NCBI RefSeq assembly: GCF_034932065.1
Contig: NZ_JAYGHP010000006.1
Location: 124,001-188,000 of the forward strand
Source of the DNA: Crocosphaera sp. UHCC 0190
GTDB lineage: Bacteria; Cyanobacteriota; Cyanobacteriia; Cyanobacteriales; Microcystaceae
Length of the DNA: 64,000 nt
Direction of reading: 5' to 3'
Under the pieces are notes generated by a model. That model did not search any database. It saw only the letters and a program-made list of their open reading frames with translations, and had not been told where the DNA came from. The translations under genes were made by a program, and so were the position numbers. This document shows, in pieces, positions 1-60,805 of the stretch (position 1 is the stretch's first letter; each line of letters starts with the position of its first letter).

Positions 1-1137
1 AATTCCCACTAAAATGAAGGGAAACCAATCAATCACCTGAGAAAAGGCCATCGTGGCCAAAGTGGAACCACTGATATTTTCTCCTACTCTATCCCCATAT
101 ATTCCCGTCGTCAAAATTACTAAAGCGGTCAAATTACAAATCAGAATGGTGTCAATAAATGGCTCTAAAATCGCCACAATTCCCTCTCGGATTGGTTCTT
201 TAGTTTTAGCGACGGCATGGGCGATCGCCGCTGAACCCAACCCGGCCCCATTAGAAAAGGCACTACGTCGAATCCCCTGAACGAAAATCCCAATCATGCC
301 CCCTTCTACTCCCGAAGGGGAAAAGGCTCCCTGAAATACTAACCCAAAGGCCGCCGGAATTGCTGTTAGATTGACCCCTAAGACCCACAAACAAGCCAAA
401 AGATAAATTCCTACCATCAAGGGAACTAACTTGCTTGTCACCACCCCAATGCGGCTAATGCCCCCAATAATTACCAAGCCAACCAACAGAGCAACGAGCA
501 AACCAAAGGCCCAATCATAATCTTTCATCCCAGGCACTACCGCCGCTAAAGCAGCAAAAGATTGATTGGCCTGAAACATATTGCCTCCCCCTACGGCTGA
601 GCCTAAACCAGCGAGACTGTAAAAAATGGCCAGGCCTTGACCAAGTTTGGCCTGGCCCAATTCTTGCAACCCTTGGGAGAGGTAATACATCGGGCCGCCA
701 ATGATTGTGCCATCGGGGTAAACGATGCGATATTTGACCCCTAGGGTACATTCCACAAATTTACTGGACATTCCCAAAAATCCTGCCACCGTCATCCAAA
801 AGACCGCTCCTGGCCCCCCTAATTGAATGGCAATGGCAACTCCGGCAATATTTCCCAATCCAACACTGGCCGATAGGGCCGTGGCCAAAGCCTGAAAGGA
901 AGACACTTCCCCCAGCCCTTCCTCTTGAGTTAGTTCGTACTTACCCAAGGCAATCTCTAGGGCGTGTTTAAACCCTCGAATATTAATTAACCCCATGCGT
1001 AGGGTAAAAAAAATTCCCCCAGCCAGCAACCACAGGATAATCAGAGGAAAGCCACCTATATCGAAAAAAAGCACCTGTTCAATCAGGGTAACAAGACTGG
1101 AAAACAGGCGATCAATATTATCAAGGAATTGATTCAC
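1..1137 (-). CDS. Sodium:alanine symporter family (AGCS) transporter, partial (C-terminus outside window)
   Basis: Integral membrane symporter expected to import small neutral amino acids (alanine, glycine) with sodium. The visible 379 residues start at a GTG (1135-1137) and run off the left edge, so the C-terminus is missing. The family signature is clear near residue 296: an NGAGLGSAAIAHAVAKT stretch followed by KEPIREG. An SASVGLGNIAG stretch near residue 95 is also typical. Several hydrophobic helices can be read, beginning with one at about residues 25-40. Only 4 bp separate it from the upstream CPP1-like gene on the same strand, so they may be co-transcribed. No strong ribosome-binding site precedes the GTG, so the exact start is uncertain. 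The substrate is inferred from the family only. Confidence 0.9.
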   Translation of the reverse strand, partial: MNQFLDNIDRLFSSLVTLIEQVLFFDIGGFPLIILWLLAGGIFFTLRMGLINIRGFKHALEIALGKYELTQEEGLGEVSSFQALATALSASVGLGNIAGVAIAIQLGGPGAVFWMTVAGFLGMSSKFVECTLGVKYRIVYPDGTIIGGPMYYLSQGLQELGQAKLGQGLAIFYSLAGLGSAVGGGNMFQANQSFAALAAVVPGMKDYDWAFGLLVALLVGLVIIGGISRIGVVTSKLVPLMVGIYLLACLWVLGVNLTAIPAAFGLVFQGAFSPSGVEGGMIGIFVQGIRRSAFSNGAGLGSAAIAHAVAKTKEPIREGIVAILEPFIDTILICNLTALVILTTGIYGDRVGENISGSTLATMAFSQVIDWFPFILVGI

Positions 1138-1141
1138 AGGG

Positions 1142-1762
1142 TTAACGAAGGAAGCTACTGCTCAACCAAAAGACAAAAAACACAACAATACTAATCAAGG
1201 ATTGATGGGTTCCACCGATTAGATTAGACCCCTGTAATAATTGGGCGATTCCCATACCTAATCCTACTCCCAACAGTAACCCCACCAGGGTGATTAGGAG
1301 AGCGCGGCCAAATTTATTTTCTTTGCGGTTTAGAAAGTAAAGATTTGTAAAGACTCCCAAGGCAAGCAGTAGGGGTAACAAAGAGGACTGATCTGAGGAA
1401 AACCCTGCTAAGAGAGCTAACCCTAGAAAGATCCCTGTGGGCCAAACAAGTTCCTTAGAGGAAGGGGTATCAATAAACCTTTGTAACCAAGGAGGGGAAT
1501 TATTAAGAGATAGGGAGGGGAGACTAGGGGGAACTTCCACTTTGCGGTCTGGAAAACGAATGCGATCGGGGACTTTGATTCTACCTTCTTGGCGCATTCT
1601 GAGGCGTTCCATAATAATCGCATCATAAGCGGCTTCGATACTTTCCACCACCTTAACGTCGTCCCGATACTCTTGACTTAAACGATTTTTGGCTTCCTGG
1701 ATCTCCTCAAAGGAAGCTGCCTCAGTAATGCCCAGTTTTTCGTAGGGAGTTTGCTCGCTCAT
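1142..1762 (-). CDS. CPP1-like family membrane protein (J-like domain plus four membrane segments)
   Basis: Resembles the cyanobacterial and plastid CPP1-like family (chaperone-like protein of protochlorophyllide oxidoreductase; DUF3353). The first ~60 residues form a degenerate J-like helical domain (PYEKLGITEAASFEEIQEAK) without the HPD tripeptide of true DnaJ proteins. A basic, proline-rich linker follows, then four hydrophobic segments at about residues 107-121, 127-144, 152-174 and 187-204. Plant homologues stabilise the chlorophyll-synthesis enzyme POR; that role here is inference. An AGGAGG ribosome-binding site stands just before the ATG, which fixes the start. The symporter gene follows after 4 bp. 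Confidence 0.8.
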   Translation of the reverse strand: MSEQTPYEKLGITEAASFEEIQEAKNRLSQEYRDDVKVVESIEAAYDAIIMERLRMRQEGRIKVPDRIRFPDRKVEVPPSLPSLSLNNSPPWLQRFIDTPSSKELVWPTGIFLGLALLAGFSSDQSSLLPLLLALGVFTNLYFLNRKENKFGRALLITLVGLLLGVGLGMGIAQLLQGSNLIGGTHQSLISIVVFFVFWLSSSFLR

Positions 1763-1965
1763 CTAAAACCTCCTGCCATAATTTCCCTCGTTAAATCACT
1801 GGATAATGAATCGGTTAATGAATTTTAAGGGGATTTACCAAAATTCTTAATTCTTGGCTTATCTTTATGCTTGAGTTCGTCAACCGAAATAGTGATTTTG
1901 ACCTCGATTATAGCCTTACTCCAGTTAGTTTAGCTTGAGAACTGCAAAAGATTTCAGAATGATTC

Positions 1966-2247
1966 TTATCCTTGTTGAGAACTGTTACTTTTTGTCTTAT
2001 CTACGTTTTGAGAGGAAGTCTCAGTCCCTTGATTTTCTTCTAGTTCTGCTTTCATTGTCACAGATTCTTCGATTTGTTGGGCTTCCCGTTTAAATTCATT
2101 CTCGAACTCTTTAGACGCATCTTGAAAACCGCGAATGGCCTTACCAAGACTGCGACCAATTTCGGGCAGTTTTTTGGGGCCAAACACTAAGAGCGCAATC
2201 ACCAAGATTAACGCCATTTCAGGCAATCCAATGCCAAAAACATTCAT
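1966..2247 (-). CDS. tatA: Sec-independent protein translocase subunit TatA/E
   Basis: Pore-forming subunit of the twin-arginine export system of the plasma or thylakoid membrane, which moves folded proteins. The 93-residue protein has the family layout: a short N-terminus, one membrane helix at residues 6-21 (PEMALILVIALLVFG), the FGPKKLPEIGRSLG hinge, an amphipathic helix, and a charged glutamine- and serine-rich tail. The frame is open 29 codons further upstream, but the ATG at 2245-2247 gives the conserved N-terminus (MNVFGIGLPEMA). It sits next to psbH on the same strand. A lipoprotein with a twin-arginine signal is encoded about 1.8 kb away and may be a client. Confidence 0.93.
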   Translation of the reverse strand: MNVFGIGLPEMALILVIALLVFGPKKLPEIGRSLGKAIRGFQDASKEFENEFKREAQQIEESVTMKAELEENQGTETSSQNVDKTKSNSSQQG

Positions 2248-2441
2248 AATTGCTCCTGATATTGATCTAATAATCCTATTTATCGGATTTTTGTGTAGAT
2301 GAGAGGCAAAAAAACCCGGATAAACCGGGGTCAATGTAATTGTTTGTCTGTTTTAGGGAAGGTCATCAATTATCATCATCATGGTATTCCTGACAGAAGC
2401 AGATAAGACCAAAACCTGATAACTGATGACAGACAAGGGTA

Positions 2442-2636
2442 TTAACCACCCCAATTTACACTAAACCCATCGAGTAATAGGGACGAGTTGTAAATTTGCA
2501 GAATGATTAACAAAAAGACCAAGAATAATCCCATGAAAACTCCCATCAGAGGGGTGGTTCCCCATCCAGGTACGACCTTTCCGTACTCAGAGTTCAGAGG
2601 TCTGAGTACATCTCCTAACCAAGTGCGTTGTGCCAT
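2442..2636 (-). CDS. psbH: Photosystem II reaction centre protein H
   Basis: Small single-span subunit of photosystem II, 64 residues, the usual cyanobacterial length. It starts [20 protein letters not shown], has one membrane helix at about residues 29-46 ([19 protein letters not shown]), and ends in the conserved [12 protein letters not shown]-type tail. It supports the Q-B site and bicarbonate region and helps assemble CP47. The frame is open further upstream, but the ATG at 2634-2636 matches the family start. psbN lies divergently 84 bp away, the arrangement conserved in cyanobacteria and related to that of chloroplasts. Confidence 0.97.
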
Positions 2637-2720
2637 AAGTTTGTAATCGTTGTCTCTAAATTTAGATGCTTTGACATTTGTCATATTATAAGAGAATCGG
2701 TATCATCTTCAAAAAATCCT
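2637..2720. promoter_or_regulatory. Divergent psbH/psbN promoter region
   Basis: This 84-bp gap separates the start codons of psbH (minus) and psbN (plus), so it must hold at least the proximal promoter and leader of both, unless one is expressed from further away. It is AT-rich. I did not find a convincing -35/-10 pair for either gene, so only its position supports the call. Confidence 0.5.
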
Positions 2721-2852
2721 ATGGAACCTGCAACTGTTTTAAGTATCGCTATTGGCTCAATCCTTCTTTTAATCACGGGTTTCGCCGTTTATACCGCTTT
2801 TGGCCCTCCTTCTGCTCAATTGAGTGATCCCTTTGAAGATCACGAAGATTAA
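2721..2852 (+). CDS. psbN: Photosystem II biogenesis protein PsbN
   Basis: A 43-residue membrane protein that is needed for photosystem II assembly and repair in plastids and is not a stable subunit. It begins [20 protein letters not shown] and has one hydrophobic helix at residues 5-27. The tail is conserved: [20 protein letters not shown]. The ATG at 2721 matches the family start although the frame is open upstream. It is transcribed away from psbH. Confidence 0.97.
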
Positions 2853-2941
2853 GCTGACGGTGTGTGATCGTTAGGTTTGTCAATGTTGGGTTGTCTTGAT
2901 TGATTAACCCAACCACGAATAAAAGTAAAAAGTAATTAAAA

Positions 2942-3385
2942 ATGTTTAAAGTGATTTGTTATGGGAAAAAGGCAACAATTTTCATGGGATTAATCATGAC
3001 TTTGGCCAGTCTAACGCCCCTGAAAGCAATGGCACAATCGTCAATCAATCCCCTCGAAGGAGAATGGATTAAGTTAAGTTGTGATGGGGAACCTGGTATG
3101 AGTTTAACCCCTGATAAACAGGAAAAAATTAGGGCAGCTTTAGCTGAGAATGAACAACTGCAAAGTTTATTTGGAGAATTCGCCACACAAAGGTTAACGG
3201 GTAGTTTGTTGGATGGTTTTCTGGCAATGGCGCAGTATAGTTTAGGACAGTTTCGCCGTGAGTCTGAAGGAAAATCTATGGCCTTATTAACCTTGTTTTT
3301 TGATGACAAAACCTTAGACATGGTGTCTAAAGAAGTTAAGGCACAATGGCAACAGGAAATGCAACAAGCTTGTTCAAATCAGTAG
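2942..3385 (+). CDS. Secreted protein of unknown function
   Basis: I do not recognise this 147-residue protein. It has a signal peptide: a basic start (MFKVICYGKKA), a hydrophobic core at about residues 12-25, and a probable AMA-Q cleavage near residue 32. The mature part is about 115 residues, mostly predicted helical and charged, with two cysteines (near residues 47 and 144) that could form a disulphide. An extracytoplasmic location is inferred from this. It stands alone between psbN and the hicAB pair. Confidence 0.6.
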   Translation: MFKVICYGKKATIFMGLIMTLASLTPLKAMAQSSINPLEGEWIKLSCDGEPGMSLTPDKQEKIRAALAENEQLQSLFGEFATQRLTGSLLDGFLAMAQYSLGQFRRESEGKSMALLTLFFDDKTLDMVSKEVKAQWQQEMQQACSNQ

Positions 3386-3474
3386 GTTTTTTACTTGATC
3401 TTCACGAATCTTTTGGCACCCATTTGGGAACTTTGTTTCTGTTTTTTGTTTACAGTTCAATTTTTATCAAGAAT

Positions 3475-3684
3475 TTATAATTGACTTACTTCAGGAATAG
3501 ATTCTCCTTCAATTTGCCAAGATTCTAAATACATTTCGATTACTTCTTCACCGTTACGAATTGCTTCTTCACGGGTTTTTCCATGAGTACAAGGCATGAA
3601 AACAAGCTCAGCAAACTCTGGAATTGTTACTAGAAAAAGCTGATCTTCATCAGACCACTGAATGATCATACTATATTGACTCAT
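3475..3684 (-). CDS. hicB: HicB-type antitoxin
   Basis: A 69-residue protein with the partial RNase-H-like fold of HicB antitoxins. The pattern YSMIIQWSDEDQLFLVTIPEF, then G-TREEAIRNGEEVIEMYLESW, is diagnostic. HicB binds and blocks the HicA ribonuclease and usually represses the operon. No C-terminal DNA-binding domain is present, so this is the short form. Its ATG overlaps the hicA stop by one base (TAATG), which implies translational coupling in the usual toxin-first order. Confidence 0.88.
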   Translation of the reverse strand: MSQYSMIIQWSDEDQLFLVTIPEFAELVFMPCTHGKTREEAIRNGEEVIEMYLESWQIEGESIPEVSQL

Positions 3685-3905
3685 TAATTGTTATCCTTCC
3701 TTATTTCTTCTAATTTAGCTAATAATGCTGTTAGCTGTTTTTCCAGATAAGGTGGTACATCGTCTCCATCTTTACCTGAAATGGTTAATGTTTTCCTCAA
3801 CAGAGGATGTCGCCAACGTTCATGACTCCCTTTCCCACGCTTGGGTAAATAAATAAAGCCGTACCGTGCAATCTGAGTTTTCAACTCTCGAATTTTCCTG
3901 GGCAT
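3684..3905 (-). CDS. hicA: HicA-type toxin (mRNA interferase)
   Basis: A 73-residue protein with a double-stranded-RNA-binding-like fold. It starts MPRKIRELKTQIARYGF, and the catalytic His lies in GKGSHERWRHP, a typical HicA motif. It cuts mRNA and slows growth when HicB is lost. The frame is open 15 codons upstream to 3950, but the ATG at 3903-3905 gives the standard N-terminus. It overlaps hicB by one base. The pair is probably a stabilising or stress module. Confidence 0.88.
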   Translation of the reverse strand: MPRKIRELKTQIARYGFIYLPKRGKGSHERWRHPLLRKTLTISGKDGDDVPPYLEKQLTALLAKLEEIRKDNN

Positions 3906-4003
3906 GGATATTCTATGATACTCTATTCTATTGTCTGACTCAACAACCATAAATAGATAATAACTGCTACCTTTAATAAAAAACTTATAATTACATCCCC
4001 AAT

Positions 4004-5356
4004 ATGATGAAACGCCGTAACTTTATCAAATACACTAGCCTAGGCATCGCGGGTTTAGGATTCACCGCTTGCAGCAATTTCGATATATTTTCCCCCAACA
4101 AGGCACAAAAAAATCTCGATCTCGGTTCTCTCGAAAAGTCTAACCTAACTCTCGGATTTGTTGCTACTCAAGATGCTGCCCCCCTAATTATTGCCCAGGA
4201 AAAGGGGCTTTTTGAGCGTTATGGCTTAACTGTCACCCTGAAGCGTTACGATACCTGGGAAGCGGTGCAAAAAGACCTCTTAGAATGGCGTTCTGATGCG
4301 GCACAACTTCCCTATTCCTTCCCCATGATGGCACAGTTAGGGGAAAAGAAAGCTCCCTTAATCTCTTTGATGAATCTTAACCTGAATGGGAGTGCGATCG
4401 CCTTAAACCAAAAAGCTTGGGAAGCGGGAATTCGTCCCTCGGTGGATTATTTTAATTTTGCTGATTTTGAAGGAGGAGTGCGAAACTATCTGAGAAATCG
4501 GGGAAAATCTGCTAAGTTTGCTGTAGATTCTAATTTTTCGATGGATGCTTATTTAACTCGTTATTGGTTGTCTGCGTTGGGAATAATGCCGGATGCTGAA
4601 GTGGAATTAGTGGAATTTCCGGCTTCTCAGATGGTTTATAAACTACAAGCAGGTATGATTGAAGGTGATAGTGTTTCTGCTCCCTGGAATCAACAAACGG
4701 TCTTAAATAAGTCAGGATTTATTACTCATATTAGTCGGGATATTTGGCAAGGACATCCTAACAAAATCTTAGCCACTATGGATGGTTGGACAAGAAAAAA
4801 TCCCACAACAACAAGGGCATTAATGGCGGCATTAATTGAGGCTTGTCAATATTGCGATCGCCCTAATAATTATACAGAAGTTGCCGAAATTTTAGCCCAG
4901 CCTAACTATTTAAACTTAGATGCTAGTCTTATTCAACCAACTTTAGAAGGGAAATATTCTTACAGCAGTCAAGTTTCGGAAAAATATCAACAAAGTATTC
5001 CTGATTTTACGATTTTTCATCATCGGGAAGCTGCCTATTTAAAGAATAATGATCATGCCAATTATCCTTGGCGTTCCCATGCAGTTTGGATGTTAACTCA
5101 AATGGTTCGTTGGCATCAATTAGATAGTTCTGATTATCCTAAAGATGCGGATAAACTGTTAGATAAAATTTATCCAGTTACTTTCTATGAAGAGGTGGCC
5201 AAAGGGTTAAAAATTCCCCTGCCAAGTGATAACATGAAACAGGAACCAGTCACAGCTTTTATTGATGGCAGAGCATTTGATCCGAGTCAACCTGTCGCTT
5301 ATTTGAATCAGTTTCCTATTCGTGCGAGTCGTCCTCAATTTTTCGGCTTCGCTTAA
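4004..5356 (+). CDS. CmpA/NrtA-like ABC transporter substrate-binding lipoprotein
   Basis: A periplasmic solute-binding lipoprotein of the nitrate/bicarbonate-binding family. The signal has a twin-arginine pair (KRRNFIK, residues 3-9) and a lipobox ending FTAC, with the lipidated cysteine at residue 23. Such signals can direct Tat export, and tatA lies nearby. The mature part shows the family pattern: LGFVATQDAAPLIIAQEKGLFERYG, then SLMNLNLNGSAIALN and SAPWNQQ. Length is 450 residues, similar to CmpA and NrtA. No permease or ATPase gene is adjacent, so it is an orphan component. Nitrate, nitrite, bicarbonate or another small anion is possible; the ligand cannot be read from sequence. Confidence 0.85.
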   Translation: MMKRRNFIKYTSLGIAGLGFTACSNFDIFSPNKAQKNLDLGSLEKSNLTLGFVATQDAAPLIIAQEKGLFERYGLTVTLKRYDTWEAVQKDLLEWRSDAAQLPYSFPMMAQLGEKKAPLISLMNLNLNGSAIALNQKAWEAGIRPSVDYFNFADFEGGVRNYLRNRGKSAKFAVDSNFSMDAYLTRYWLSALGIMPDAEVELVEFPASQMVYKLQAGMIEGDSVSAPWNQQTVLNKSGFITHISRDIWQGHPNKILATMDGWTRKNPTTTRALMAALIEACQYCDRPNNYTEVAEILAQPNYLNLDASLIQPTLEGKYSYSSQVSEKYQQSIPDFTIFHHREAAYLKNNDHANYPWRSHAVWMLTQMVRWHQLDSSDYPKDADKLLDKIYPVTFYEEVAKGLKIPLPSDNMKQEPVTAFIDGRAFDPSQPVAYLNQFPIRASRPQFFGFA

Positions 5357-5401
5357 CTCCCTAGGAGCAAGCAGCCATCATCGGTATAAACTTAATAATA
5401 T

Positions 5402-5440
5402 AGCCTCTCAAATTTGTCAATGTAGAGAGGCTTTTTCTCT
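5402..5440 (+). terminator. Rho-independent terminator
   Basis: A perfect 8-bp stem, AGCCTCTC (5402-5409) with GAGAGGCT (5425-5432), and a 15-nt loop are followed by a run of five T. It lies 46 bp after the stop of the substrate-binding lipoprotein gene and before the convergent ABC1 kinase gene. Confidence 0.8.
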
Positions 5441-5484
5441 ATGCTGCTTTTCCTATAATACCGATATTAACCGTAATTGGTAAA

Positions 5485-7167
5485 TTATTTTTCAATTAAC
5501 TTATCTATTTTTTCTTGAATCATTAATGTAAATAATGATTTGAATAACAACAAACAAAATAATCCTGCAAACCCGAAACAAACTAGGGATAATTTAAGAT
5601 AAATAGTTGTCATTAAGATGGAAGCAGACAGTAATAAAAACCCGGTTAAACAAGTATAAATTAAACTCTTAATTCCTAAATTAATACGCTTTAATATTCT
5701 CTCACTTTCCAATGATCGAATGCGAAATTGTAATTCTCCTCTGTCTATTCTTTCCTCTAAACGCTTCAAAAACTTTTCCGATGTATTCGGTTTAATTAAG
5801 GTACTTTTGATCAGATCTTTTGCTTGCCTTGCTAAAGCAGTCACCAAACTTCCCCGACTACCACTTAAGGCTAAACTTTTGACAAAAGGTTGACTCGCTT
5901 CTAATAAATTATATTGGGGATCTAAGGCCCGTGCAATACCATCCAAAGTTGTCAAAGATTTGAGGATAAATGTCATTTGTGGAGGTAAACGAAAAGGTTG
6001 ACTTTTGAACATTAAATATACTTCATCACTAATTTGTTCAAAGGCCCGAACATCTACAGGTTTATCTCGAAAATTATCTAAGAGAAACGCCACAATTCGC
6101 TTCACTGGGGTCATATCATTTAAAGGTTCAATTAACTCCATATAAACCAAGGTTTCAATCACTTTGTCTGTATCTTTTTTTAAGACAGCAAAAAAGGTTT
6201 GTATCATCTGATCTTTAGCAAAGGTTTTGACTTCGGCCATGGTGCCAAAATCATAAAATATCAAGTCTCCCCTTTGACTCACTGCCATATTACCAGGATG
6301 GGGATCGGATTGAAAAAATCCATCTAATAAGAGTTGTTTTAAATAAGAACAAATTCCTAATTGAATAATCCGGTCTAAGTTAATGTTATTCGCTTCTAAA
6401 GCAGCACGATCATCAATTTTAATCCCTGGTAAATATTCTAAGGTTAACACTTTCTTTGTGCTATACTTCCAGTAAACTTTAGGGACGATAATTTGAGAAT
6501 AACCTCTAAAATTATTGCGAAATCTTTCGGCATTTTTCCCTTCATGAATATAATCTATTTCTTGGAATAAAAGCCCAAAAAACTCCTCATAAATTGCCTC
6601 TAAATCATACTTTTTAAAATCAGAAAAGTAACGAGTCAGAAAACGAATTAAACGATGAACTACTTCAAAATCTAAATTAAAAATTCTTTCTAACCCAGGT
6701 CGCTGTACTTTGACAACCACTTCCTCCCCTGTATATAATATAGCTCGGTGAACTTGTCCCAAACTAGCTGAGGCTAAAGGGTCGCTTTCAAAGGATTCAA
6801 ATAAATCATAAACAGGTTTACCTAATTCTGCTTCAATAACTGCGATCGCTTCTTCAGAACTAAAGGGAGGCACTCGATCTTGAAGTTGACTTAATTCTTG
6901 GATATATTCTAAGGGAATTAAATCAGCACGAGTTGACAAAGACTGCCCAATTTTAATAAATGTTGGCCCTAATTGTAGCAAATTTTTAACTAGCCATTTT
7001 GCCCGTTTATGTCTTTGTCGAGATGAATTATTTCTTAGCAGTTTATCCCAAAAGAAGCCTAACAGAAATTGTAGCGTAATGGTAGAAATTTCCCATTGTC
7101 TTGTTAGGGGAGAATTATTGGAACGTTGCCAGCGCAGCGACTGAGACGATGCACTTTTCGTAAGCAT
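5485..7167 (-). CDS. ABC1/UbiB/AarF family atypical kinase
   Basis: Atypical protein-kinase-like ATPase of the ABC1K (UbiB/ADCK) family, linked in plastids and bacteria to prenylquinone metabolism. The family motifs are intact: KxGQ at residues 72-75 (FIKIGQSLSTR), the alanine-rich loop SASLGQVHRA near 133-142, VKVQRP with lysine 153, the catalytic SDPHPGN (Asp288, Asn293) and DFG at 306-308. Two hydrophobic segments at about 505-527 and 530-553 anchor the C-terminus. It follows the degenerate histidine kinase gene by 6 bp, so they form an operon. Cyanobacteria carry several paralogues, so no gene name is given. Confidence 0.93.
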   Translation of the reverse strand: MLTKSASSQSLRWQRSNNSPLTRQWEISTITLQFLLGFFWDKLLRNNSSRQRHKRAKWLVKNLLQLGPTFIKIGQSLSTRADLIPLEYIQELSQLQDRVPPFSSEEAIAVIEAELGKPVYDLFESFESDPLASASLGQVHRAILYTGEEVVVKVQRPGLERIFNLDFEVVHRLIRFLTRYFSDFKKYDLEAIYEEFFGLLFQEIDYIHEGKNAERFRNNFRGYSQIIVPKVYWKYSTKKVLTLEYLPGIKIDDRAALEANNINLDRIIQLGICSYLKQLLLDGFFQSDPHPGNMAVSQRGDLIFYDFGTMAEVKTFAKDQMIQTFFAVLKKDTDKVIETLVYMELIEPLNDMTPVKRIVAFLLDNFRDKPVDVRAFEQISDEVYLMFKSQPFRLPPQMTFILKSLTTLDGIARALDPQYNLLEASQPFVKSLALSGSRGSLVTALARQAKDLIKSTLIKPNTSEKFLKRLEERIDRGELQFRIRSLESERILKRINLGIKSLIYTCLTGFLLLSASILMTTIYLKLSLVCFGFAGLFCLLLFKSLFTLMIQEKIDKLIEK

Positions 7168-58276: not shown

Positions 58277-60805
58277 TTGGCGATGGCTGCTTCCGATTTG
58301 ATTACCTGGCTAAAAGAACGCACCACCCTGGCTTTATTGAGTACAGAGGTGCTAGAGGCGATCGCGCTTCAGATGAAATTAATTACCATTGAAGCTTCAC
58401 AAACCCTAGCGGTAGAAGGAACTTCCCCCGAAGGACTATATATTCTCAAATCTGGACGGATTCAAAGTTACGGCAAAGTCAGACCAGAGGTTGGCTTACT
58501 CCCAGGGAAAGTGATTAACTTGAGAGCCTTAATTTTAGAGCAATCCGCATCAGAAACCCTCAAAACACTGACTGAGTGCGAATTATGGTGGATTGCCACC
58601 CCCGATTTTAAATCATTGCTGGAGCAATATCCAGACATCACTCAAGCTTTCTCCCAACAATTGGCGAAAGAGGTAGAACAATTGTCTGCTGCCTTGAGTT
58701 TTGAACAGGAACGACAGACCATTTTACGTCCCTATTTAGTCCCCAAAGTGAAGCGGGGGGTGATTGGCAAAAGTCGCTATGCTGTTAAATTGCGCTCCCA
58801 GATTCAATGTATGGCAGATAATCGCCAACCTGTGTTGATTTTTGGCGAAGCGGGCTTACAAAAAGACAATCTGGCGGCCTTAATCCATTTTAGTTCCCCT
58901 TTCCGTCGAGAGCCAATTATCCAAGTCAATTGTTCCCAATTGCAAGGGCGTGGTGCCGAGCTATTCGGACGAACAGGAGGAAAATTAAGCTTGCTCGAAG
59001 CATTAGGGGAAGGAACGATTATTTTAACCAATCTTCAAGAACTGACACCAGAATTATTAAAATCCATTGCCGAATTACTCTCCACGGGAACCTATCAACC
59101 TGTCAGCCGCCAAGGAGAGGCTCAAGGGACTCGCAAAACGAGTCAGGCGCGAATCATCATCATTTCTGAGAAAAAGCTCCCCAGCATTGATGGACTGGTG
59201 AAAAATATTATTAAAGTTCCCCCCCTGCGAGTCCGCAAAACCGACATCGAGGACTCAGTTAATTACTACATTAGTTTAATTTGTCGGGGGAGGGGCATTG
59301 CCAAAGTAAGTCTGAGTGATGAAGCATTACGGAGGCTGCAAGCTTATGATTTTCCCAATAACTTAAGAGAACTCGAAAATCTCATTCAACGGGCGATTGT
59401 ACAGTTACAAGGGTATCCAGAGATTACCGAAGAAATTATCTGGCCATCCCAAAGCAAAAAACAGCAATTTCGCTTCAATCTTCTCAATGCCTATCCTAGT
59501 TTGCGTCACTTTTTGCGGAGTGAATGGTATCCTGAACGCCTAAATTATGGTTTTACCCTGACTGTCTTTGCTGCGGTCAATATTATCCTCTTTGTCGGGC
59601 CGCAAACGCGAGAGCAAAACTTTGCTTTAAATCTTTTTTGGGCCTGGTGGTGGCCCCTGGTATTAATTGGATTTCCCTTTGTGGGACGGCTTTGGTGTGC
59701 TGTTTGTCCCTTTATGATTTATGGAGAAGTTACTCAAAAAATCTCCCTTTGGTTATTTCCGCGACAACTCCAAAAATGGCCCCGTCAAGCGGCTGAAAAA
59801 TCCGGTGGTTGGTTTTTATGGGGTTTATTTACCTTAATTCTCTTGTGGGAAGAACTCTGGGATTTAAAAAATACCGCCTATCTTTCTTCTTGTTTGTTGC
59901 TTTTGATTACCGCAGGAGCGATGATTTGTTCAACTATTTTTGAACGCCGCTTTTGGTGTCGTTATTTATGCCCGATTGGTGGCATGAATGGACTGTTTGC
60001 CAAACTGTCAATGACAGAATTACGAGCGCAACAGGGAACTTGTTCTGCCGAGTGTAGCACCTATCAATGTTATAAAGGCGGCCCGCAAAAAGGAGAAGGC
60101 TTAGAAACGGAGGGTTGCCCCTTATATTCCCATCCGGCCCAACTTGTAGAAAATCGAGATTGTGTGTTATGTATGACCTGTTTAAAAGCCTGTCCTCATC
60201 GTTCTGTGGAGTTGAATTTACGCCCTCCTGGAATTGAATTATGGACAACCCATGTTCCTCGAACTCATGAAGTTGCTTTGCTGTTTCTTTTATTAGATGC
60301 TATTTTTTTACATCGTTTACCCCAGGTGCAAGCTCAATTGGGAATTTCTGGGGATTTAAATCGATTTGGGATACATTTGGCCATGGCGGTTCTGGCCTTG
60401 AGTCTGCCTGTCCTATTCCCTGTAATAATCCATCAAATGATGAGAGTTTTCGTGAAGTTTCAATCAAACCTCAAAATTCGCTCTTTTAAGGAATTAGCCT
60501 ATGGCTATTTGCCCTTAGTCTTAGCGGGAAATTTGGCTTATTATTTACAAATGGGACTAGGGGAAGCGGGCAGAATTTTACCCTTAACCTTAGCTAACTT
60601 TGGGTTTTCAGGAGAAGGGTTGCCTATTTTTGTTGCCCATCCTGCGGTAATTGCTTTCTTACAATCCACCCTTTTAATTTTTGGTGTGCTTTTGTCGATT
60701 GTTTTGACGCAAAAAATCGCTAAACTGCCTTTTCGATACTTACTTTTTCAACATTTATGTACGGCAATTTTTGCATTTTGTTTAGGGAAAATCATTCTTA
60801 CTTAA
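58277..60805 (+). CDS. Fusion of cNMP-binding-like, degenerate sigma54-activator AAA and membrane polyferredoxin domains
   Basis: An 842-residue protein with three parts. Residues ~20-140 are a cyclic-nucleotide-binding-like beta barrel (SPEGLYILKSGRIQSYG). Residues ~155-390 follow sigma54-activator AAA proteins (VIGKSRYAVKLR; AELFGR; PNNLRELENLIQRAI), but Walker A reads GEAGLQKD (190-197), Walker B lost its acidic pair (GTIILTNLQEL), and GAFTGA is absent. Cyanobacteria lack sigma54. From ~420 there are about 8-10 membrane helices with NapH/NosR-like cysteines: Cys474 and 477 (CxxCP), Cys561 and 565, Cys589, 593, 598, and a [4Fe-4S] set at 629, 632, 635, 639. A redox sensor or electron carrier controlled by ligand is plausible. 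Confidence 0.85.
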   Translation: MAMAASDLITWLKERTTLALLSTEVLEAIALQMKLITIEASQTLAVEGTSPEGLYILKSGRIQSYGKVRPEVGLLPGKVINLRALILEQSASETLKTLTECELWWIATPDFKSLLEQYPDITQAFSQQLAKEVEQLSAALSFEQERQTILRPYLVPKVKRGVIGKSRYAVKLRSQIQCMADNRQPVLIFGEAGLQKDNLAALIHFSSPFRREPIIQVNCSQLQGRGAELFGRTGGKLSLLEALGEGTIILTNLQELTPELLKSIAELLSTGTYQPVSRQGEAQGTRKTSQARIIIISEKKLPSIDGLVKNIIKVPPLRVRKTDIEDSVNYYISLICRGRGIAKVSLSDEALRRLQAYDFPNNLRELENLIQRAIVQLQGYPEITEEIIWPSQSKKQQFRFNLLNAYPSLRHFLRSEWYPERLNYGFTLTVFAAVNIILFVGPQTREQNFALNLFWAWWWPLVLIGFPFVGRLWCAVCPFMIYGEVTQKISLWLFPRQLQKWPRQAAEKSGGWFLWGLFTLILLWEELWDLKNTAYLSSCLLLLITAGAMICSTIFERRFWCRYLCPIGGMNGLFAKLSMTELRAQQGTCSAECSTYQCYKGGPQKGEGLETEGCPLYSHPAQLVENRDCVLCMTCLKACPHRSVELNLRPPGIELWTTHVPRTHEVALLFLLLDAIFLHRLPQVQAQLGISGDLNRFGIHLAMAVLALSLPVLFPVIIHQMMRVFVKFQSNLKIRSFKELAYGYLPLVLAGNLAYYLQMGLGEAGRILPLTLANFGFSGEGLPIFVAHPAVIAFLQSTLLIFGVLLSIVLTQKIAKLPFRYLLFQHLCTAIFAFCLGKIILT

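Follow-up and report, generated by a model that had tools for sequence, protein, structure and literature searches.

What can a protein built like a sigma-54 activator do in a cyanobacterium, a group reported to lack sigma-54? The question is raised by a gene on the forward strand of a 64,000-nucleotide stretch of the genome of Crocosphaera sp. UHCC 0190 (positions 124,001 to 188,000 of contig NZ_JAYGHP010000006.1), the whole of which is called here the window. Its product joins a barrel of the cyclic-nucleotide-binding type and an AAA domain of the sigma-54 activators to a membrane core with iron-sulphur (Fe-S) motifs. Relatives are annotated as 'nitrogen assimilation regulatory protein' or 'cyclic nucleotide-binding protein', and the protein is widespread in cyanobacteria, yet it cannot be a sigma-54 activator. 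We prefer to read it, with a probability of about 0.6, as an electron-transfer protein of the membrane whose regulatory domain is a pseudo-ATPase, and not as a transcription activator. The architecture is real and conserved, and apparently undescribed so far; the family is not described in the open-access literature searched, and the passages available from PMC5061849, PMC7555055, PMC3516471 and PMC1858693 do not contain it.

Domain order and fate of the activator motifs

The longest open reading frame runs from 58277 to 60805 (+) and encodes 842 amino acids from a TTG. Homologues start at its residue 3, an ATG at 58283, so that the protein most likely has 840 amino acids, and residue numbers are counted from this ATG unless 842-residue numbering is stated. 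Four Pfam domains score above their cut-offs, namely cNMP_binding (PF00027, 3.8e-10), Sigma54_activat (PF00158, 1.6e-11), AAA_lid_14 (1.2e-11) and Fer4_5 (2.1e-9, 37.6 bits against a cut-off of 22), which bears out the fusion of barrel, AAA domain and membrane Fe-S core proposed in an earlier reading made without database searches (the sequence-only reading). Among NCBIfam models, those of the sigma-54 activators NorR, TyrR, PspF and NifA match the AAA part and those of NapH/MauN match residues 468-646 (842-residue numbering), none of them near the curated cut-offs. With Pfam at E up to 1, no match was found to a helix-turn-helix (HTH) or other DNA-binding domain, nor to the flavin mononucleotide (FMN)-binding domain FMN_bind. 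The order of the parts is sensor barrel, long helix, AAA domain, lid and then membrane helices, which stand where an activator has its DNA-binding domain:

58283..60805, + strand: whole gene, 840 amino acids, ATG start (the TTG at 58277 gives the longest frame)
58385..58630, + strand: CRP-like (cNMP_binding) barrel that lacks the residues of the cyclic-nucleotide cassette (Pfam PF00027; cassette columns)
58634..58735, + strand: long helix linking the barrel to the AAA domain (helix 118-151 of the AlphaFold2 model)
58763..59179, + strand: sigma-54-activator AAA domain, putative pseudo-ATPase (Pfam PF00158; Foldseek; alignment with canonical activators)
58844..58870, + strand: former Walker A, GEAGLQKDN (GEPGLEKDN in the family; alignment)
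58967..58984, + strand: short GRTGGK turn at the position of the GAFTGA loop (alignment)
59012..59038, + strand: former Walker B, GTIILTNLQ (LNN for LDE in the family; alignment)
59150..59173, + strand: former sensor I strand, RIIIISEK, with Glu296 invariant in clades M and P (alignment)
59228..59449, + strand: AAA lid domain (AAA_lid_14), followed directly by the membrane part, with no HTH (Pfam)
59696..59710, + strand: CxxCP motif of the membrane core (alignment)
59957..59974, + strand: CxxxCP motif of the membrane core, in Fer4_5 (Pfam; alignment)
60041..60118, + strand: first four-cysteine set, C-x3-C-x4-C-x15-C (alignment)
60161..60193, + strand: second four-cysteine set, C-x2-C-x2-C-x3-C, of ferredoxin type (alignment)
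60239..60802, + strand: C-terminal membrane helices, conserved, for which the search gave no solved relative (structure model; fold search)

The AAA domain was compared with seven AAA domains of canonical activators that belong to the phylum but not to the class, the arginine fingers and sensors being assigned as in PspF and NtrC1. Walker A reads GEAGLQKDN, with the lysine kept and the second glycine and the Ser/Thr lost; Walker B reads ILTN and not DE; a GRTGGK turn replaces the GAFTGA loop, with an alignment gap relative to the canonical domains; and SEK occupies the place of the sensor-I ATN. The sequence-only reading had named the first three of these losses, to which the comparison adds sensor I and the arginine-finger helix, whose segment (FRxDLYYRL) is missing in 24 of 24 members aligned with the seven domains. 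The Foldseek search returned the AAA domains of FlrC, VpsR (second), NtrC1 and NtrX, and solved NifA was matched by sequence at E 1e-17.

Since the changed motifs and the cysteines of the core are conserved over 172 homologous rows (168 distinct, from overlapping genome sets), they are more than chance. These rows form three clades, M (117 rows, including the window protein), P (10 rows, from small genomes of family f25, with no barrel) and S (45 rows). In clade M the Walker-A lysine, an aspartate at the Ser/Thr position and Glu296 are each found in 117/117 rows and the second glycine in 10/117, while the Walker-B Asp has become Asn in 114/117 (Thr in the window protein itself) and the Walker-B Glu has become Asn in all 117. 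Lys, Asp and Glu296 are likewise present in the nine scorable rows of clade P, which makes K194, D195 and E296 jointly fixed in 126/126 scorable rows. The consensus GxGK[ST] is retained in 42/43 S rows as against 0/117 M and 0/9 P rows. A homologue with an intact motor was also sought; sister clade S has an intact Walker A, yet it has no GAFTGA and no catalytic Glu in Walker B (0/43, with Asn in 38 rows, Gln in 4 and His in 1). Over the whole family alignment the catalytic Glu is present in 0 of 169 scorable rows and a GAFTGA-like string in 0 of 172.

A tree of the AAA domains, rooted on canonical activators all taken from the same phylum, supports the family (100/100), a first split of S (100/99) and the grouping of M with P (100/98), M itself being weak (64/77). 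S and P are separate also in an unrooted tree of the membrane core (support 100 each), which could not be rooted on the Deinococcus and haloarchaeal proteins because of their long branches (support 20). The simplest order that these alignments suggest is a loss of GAFTGA, of both arginine fingers and of the catalytic Glu in the common ancestor and a later loss of the P-loop consensus in M+P; the three surviving clades would show the stepwise loss of the motor of an AAA activator while it was fused to a redox core. Because GAFTGA, fingers and catalytic Glu would already have gone from that ancestor, nucleotide would at most have been bound in it, not hydrolysed. ATP binding may persist in clade S, hydrolysis being unlikely since the catalytic Glu and the fingers are missing.

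With the bacterial enhancer-binding proteins (bEBPs) NtrC1, PspF, FlrC and NifA, the window protein shares the AAA fold, the lid and the order of sensor and AAA domain; it differs from them in the absence of GAFTGA, of the arginine fingers, of the catalytic Glu and of an HTH, in the loss of Walker A in its clade, and in a genome in which no RpoN domain was found. In function it does not belong with the sigma-54 activators. RpoN was detected in 1 of 388 sampled Cyanobacteriia genomes, on a short frame of about 200 amino acids, which agrees with the claim of the sequence-only reading that cyanobacteria lack sigma-54 and that normal activation is impossible. Ordinary sigma-54 activation is excluded in practice, because RpoN is all but absent, GAFTGA and the catalytic Glu are lacking from all rows scored, and the window protein has no HTH match. 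The short frame itself (L252:1459-2067, genome G123) matches a sigma-54 DNA-binding domain at 62 bits and is possibly a remnant or a transferred fragment of rpoN. Three relatives of family f38, from the same phylum outside the class, carry tandem sigma-54 AAA domains, both complete with GAFTGA-type loops (L060:1090-3111, L061:5698-7656 and L062:5776-8073); two tandem AAA domains are, to our knowledge, unusual for activators.

Such a domain could also serve in a membrane-anchored transcription regulator that works with the sigma-70 polymerase, as TyrR, HupR and VpsR do. The passages available from PMC3162934 describe bEBPs of this type, which have a defective GAFTGA, do not depend on sigma-54 and act with sigma-70, and the closest folds to the AAA part are indeed those of bEBPs, with VpsR high among them. 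These proteins are, however, DNA-binding regulators, whereas in the window protein a membrane redox core occupies the position of the HTH and no DNA-binding domain was matched; we regard this alternative as unlikely. That the AAA part is decaying as a neutral relic is, in our judgement, very improbable. All ATPase motifs are gone in the window's clade, as a relic would have it, but the residues at 194, 195 and 296 are fixed, AAA identity within M is 62%, and the domain is never deleted from an intact member seen. The AAA ATPase has been repurposed and not merely eroded, because M and P have, in place of Walker A, other residues that are just as fixed. The nucleotide site of the window's clade seems to have been rebuilt, with K-D in the P-loop, Asn-Asn for Asp-Glu and a Glu at sensor I, and the domain would act as a pseudo-ATPase in a regulatory or docking role. 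The replacement of Thr by Asp in the P-loop of clade M, set against that of Asp by Asn in Walker B, could, speculatively, move a metal ligand.

The sequence-only reading had also seen the AAA fold as a ligand-gated scaffold on a redox protein. Reuse of the fold is well supported, because no intact member seen lacks it on the core and the new residues are conserved along with it; ligand gating is conjectural, and the cyclic-nucleotide cassette is absent. The barrel shares with the cyclic-nucleotide-binding domains of CRP/FNR type their fold and their place before a long helix, and differs in that the cassette Gly-Glu and Arg of cyclic-nucleotide receptors are not conserved in the family. The position of the cassette Glu is Leu in 106/117 M rows (with 5 gaps), a cassette-like pattern (GE...R) is found in 3/112 M rows and 0/42 S rows, and the whole barrel is absent from 5/117 M rows and from all P rows. 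The candidate role of cAMP receptor was rejected on account of the absent cassette.

The membrane core

The membrane part carries a CxxCP at residues 472-476, a CxxxCP at 559-564 and two four-cysteine sets, C587-x3-C-x4-C-x15-C612 and C627-x2-C-x2-C-x3-C637. The membrane CxxCP-type motifs of the sequence-only reading are thereby recovered, as one CxxCP and one CxxxCP, and the single four-cysteine set that it described becomes two. In clade M each of the 12 motif cysteines is present in 117/117 rows; they are kept in the 44/44 scorable S rows save for one substitution at C475, and in clade P (9-10 scorable rows) save for one at C612. Mean pairwise identity within M is 91% for the Fe-S part, 81% for the first membrane part, 67% for the lid, 62% for both the AAA domain and the C-terminal membrane part, and 48% for the barrel. 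By this measure the redox core is the most constrained piece of the protein, because its Fe-S and first membrane parts are the most conserved and the barrel is divergent and sometimes absent. The two four-cysteine sets most likely hold two [4Fe-4S] clusters.

Like the window protein, NapH, MauN, NosR and RdhC (PceC), of the Fer4_5 type, have membrane helices with two CxxCP/CxxxCP motifs; NapH and NosR also have two four-cysteine sets, and the NapH family is matched at E 5e-13. According to the passages available from PMC5928378, a membrane module with two CX3CP motifs is common to NapH, NosR and RdhC, quinol is the electron source proposed for it in NapH, and the motif cysteines may either form disulphides or bind iron; the part available from PMC8238504 presents NapH-like proteins as a modular electron-transfer part of many systems. 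The window protein differs from the NapH/NosR group in its first motif, which is CxxCP and not Cx3CP, in an irregular first cluster set (x3, x4, x15), in extra C-terminal membrane helices and in the fused cytoplasmic AAA domain and barrel, and from NosR and RdhC in lacking the FMN-binding domain. In the vicinity of the gene no nap, nos or rdh genes were seen. An ordinary NapH, NosR or CcoG is ruled out by the score, the missing FMN domain and the missing partner genes. Standalone proteins named '4Fe-4S binding protein' from Deinococcus ficus and haloarchaeal plasmids have the same core, including part of the C-terminal helices, at 25-29% identity; they differ in having neither AAA domain nor barrel, and in the haloarchaeal ones the first cluster set is reduced or missing.

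On the electron-transfer reading, the working core would be a module of the NapH/NosR/CcoG type, with transmembrane helices bearing the CxxCP and the CxxxCP, two cytoplasmic cluster sets and a C-terminal helical membrane domain. By analogy with that group its most likely task would be electron transfer between a partner in the cytosol and the membrane, there with the quinone pool or membrane thiols. An old sigma-54 activator, with its sensor barrel, long coupling helix and AAA module, would form the N-terminal half; its DNA-binding output domain would have been replaced by the membrane core, and the half would serve for regulation or docking.

It can also be the case that the protein is mainly a redox sensor, the Fe-S/membrane core of which reads the quinone pool, oxygen or sulphide while an AAA/barrel output binds and controls a cytosolic protein. 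A sensor would be in keeping with the regulator fold that all intact members seen have on the core, with the good conservation of AAA domain and lid (62-67%) and with the stress-type genes beside those of clade S. The core (81-91% identity) is, however, more conserved than the putative output domain, the barrel can be missing, and the partner gene was not found. We give this alternative a real, if minor, share of the probability.

Gene neighbourhoods

The neighbourhoods of clade S were taken from 46 loci (two of them the same plasmid, and 45 in some counts) and set against 127 M/P loci as controls, the stretches of the named M controls having a greater mean length (18.6 kb versus 14.2 kb). A cysteine synthase gene, cysK, lies downstream and on the same strand in 30/46 S loci, and 4/127 controls have it within the stretch; in 23 of the S cases the gap or overlap between the open frames is below 150 nucleotides, and in the three genes checked the NCBIfam model TIGR01139 scored well above its cut-off. 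The other 16 of the 46 loci have no cysK within the stretch, several of them ending soon after the S gene. The S islands also hold genes for rhodanese (11), Rieske (PetC; 10), YgaP-type (10), NMO-family (9), DUF3365 (7), TauE (5) and metallo-beta-lactamase-fold (5) proteins, each of which is found in 0/127 controls. Heme oxygenase, HemN and variants of the photosystem II protein D1 go with low oxygen; D1 is found in 7/45 S loci versus 1/127 controls, clusters of cytochrome bd type in 5/45 versus 0/127, heme oxygenase in 4/45 versus 0/127 and HemN in 4/45 versus 2/127 (both of these from one genome). One or more genes out of CysK, rhodanese, YgaP and the low-oxygen set are present in 38/45 S loci and in 7/127 controls. 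With cysteine synthase beside it, in islands of sulphide and low-oxygen genes, clade S suggests a redox control that concerns reduced sulphur or anoxia. Genes for resistance-nodulation-division (RND) pumps and HlyD are found near some M loci as well and are not specific.

Two S loci (L046, at about 1000-5700, and L047) have two CCG proteins, a pyridine-nucleotide oxidoreductase, a dicluster ferredoxin and a DUF4405 protein upstream of the S gene, an operon-like row that resembles sulphur oxidation of the heterodisulphide-reductase type (Hdr-like).

A family-wide role as electron donor for the metabolism of reduced sulphur (sulphide, persulphide or sulphite), together with cysteine synthase and rhodanese-type proteins, would account for the closeness and constant strand of cysK in clade S and for the rhodanese, YgaP, TauE, metallo-beta-lactamase and Hdr-like genes of its islands. 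Against such a role for the whole family stand the few M/P loci that have cysK within the stretch, the absence of rhodanese from all 127 of them and the S loci in which cysK was not found, and we consider it rather doubtful.

The window gene is flanked by a gene that we take, from its sequence, to be proA-like and by a methyltransferase gene (Pfam). No conserved neighbours were found for clade M in 46 M/P loci and 81 further loci, the window included. The downstream methyltransferase, the co-occurrence of which the sequence-only reading had singled out, was rejected as a partner, no homologue being present up to 10 kb away from any of 80 named relatives. In several Nostocales-type genomes an LtrA-family membrane protein follows the clade M gene (e.g. 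L170:12706-13935); it lies near 16 of 80 named loci and was set aside as Nostocales-type synteny. Nitrogen control through NtcA was not convincing either, a box being found upstream of 8/77 M genes versus 79/1127 control frames, and none in the upstream region of the window gene.

Several points weigh against the electron-transfer reading. In the AlphaFold2 model, built from the window protein and 49 relatives (predicted local distance difference test, pLDDT, 74.6; predicted template modelling score, pTM, 0.48), the Fe-S region has a pLDDT of about 30. The membrane module, which modelled alone reached a pTM of 0.73 but again gave no reliable Fe-S region, is without a match among solved structures, since the fold search gave a best E of 1.2 and the profile search nothing beyond two weak ferredoxin-type matches. 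The NapH score, 49.1 bits, is far under the family cut-off of 213.05. The window's clade has no partner gene, and because its neighbours are not conserved, a link of clade M to sulphur or anoxia would be drawn by analogy with sister clade S.

A more specific form of the proposal, which we think rather less likely than not, is a new kind of nucleotide- or ligand-gated membrane redox switch present in most cyanobacteria, in which the rebuilt pocket (Lys-Asp with Asn-Asn and Glu), perhaps with its metal ligand shifted from Walker B to the P-loop, would bind a nucleotide or dinucleotide without hydrolysing it and so gate the NapH-like core, clade S being a version that still binds ATP and is tuned to sulphide or anoxia. 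Since the sister clade ties the family to sulphide and low-oxygen genes, the protein may be an unrecognised part of the balance between oxygenic photosynthesis and anoxia or sulphide.

Distribution and plasmid copies

Family members (E <= 1e-50) were found in 261 of the 388 Cyanobacteriia genomes, at most two candidates being scored per genome. In a separate phylum-wide sample of 386 genomes, no match listed from outside the class covers both the AAA and the membrane part; the outside-class rows cover the AAA part (ordinary activators), the barrel, or about residues 459-651. Within the window's own taxonomic family, 0 of 11 sampled genomes of two genera (g3 and g5) carry the gene. The best 80 loci of a contig scan are cyanobacterial by their titles, a set limited to the best matches and thus no measure of absence outside the phylum. 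A match was found in 1,836 plasmid records, and it spans 80% of the query or more in only two of them, which are cyanobacterial; matches on Pelobacter and Octadecabacter plasmids were rejected as fusions, being annotated sigma-54 regulators without the membrane core in the same gene.

Possibly slr0593 of Synechocystis is the orthologue of the window gene. It is annotated as 'cAMP binding membrane protein', and its transcripts are lower in iron deprivation, according to the passages available from PMC3516471.

Among the 388 genomes, 43 were read as having clade S, and 33 of these have a second match, mostly of clade M. Three members of clades P and S (L058, L059 and L049) are split over two frames, through a frameshift, a pseudogene or a sequencing error. 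Two S genes are located on cyanobacterial plasmids (L183, AP018309.1, and L184, NZ_CP112877.1), one of which is typed as conjugative; both S genes adjoin cysK and, on one plasmid or the other, genes for Rieske, D1, DsrE and rhodanese proteins, and the plasmid-borne S region looks like a mobile island tuned to sulphide or low oxygen.

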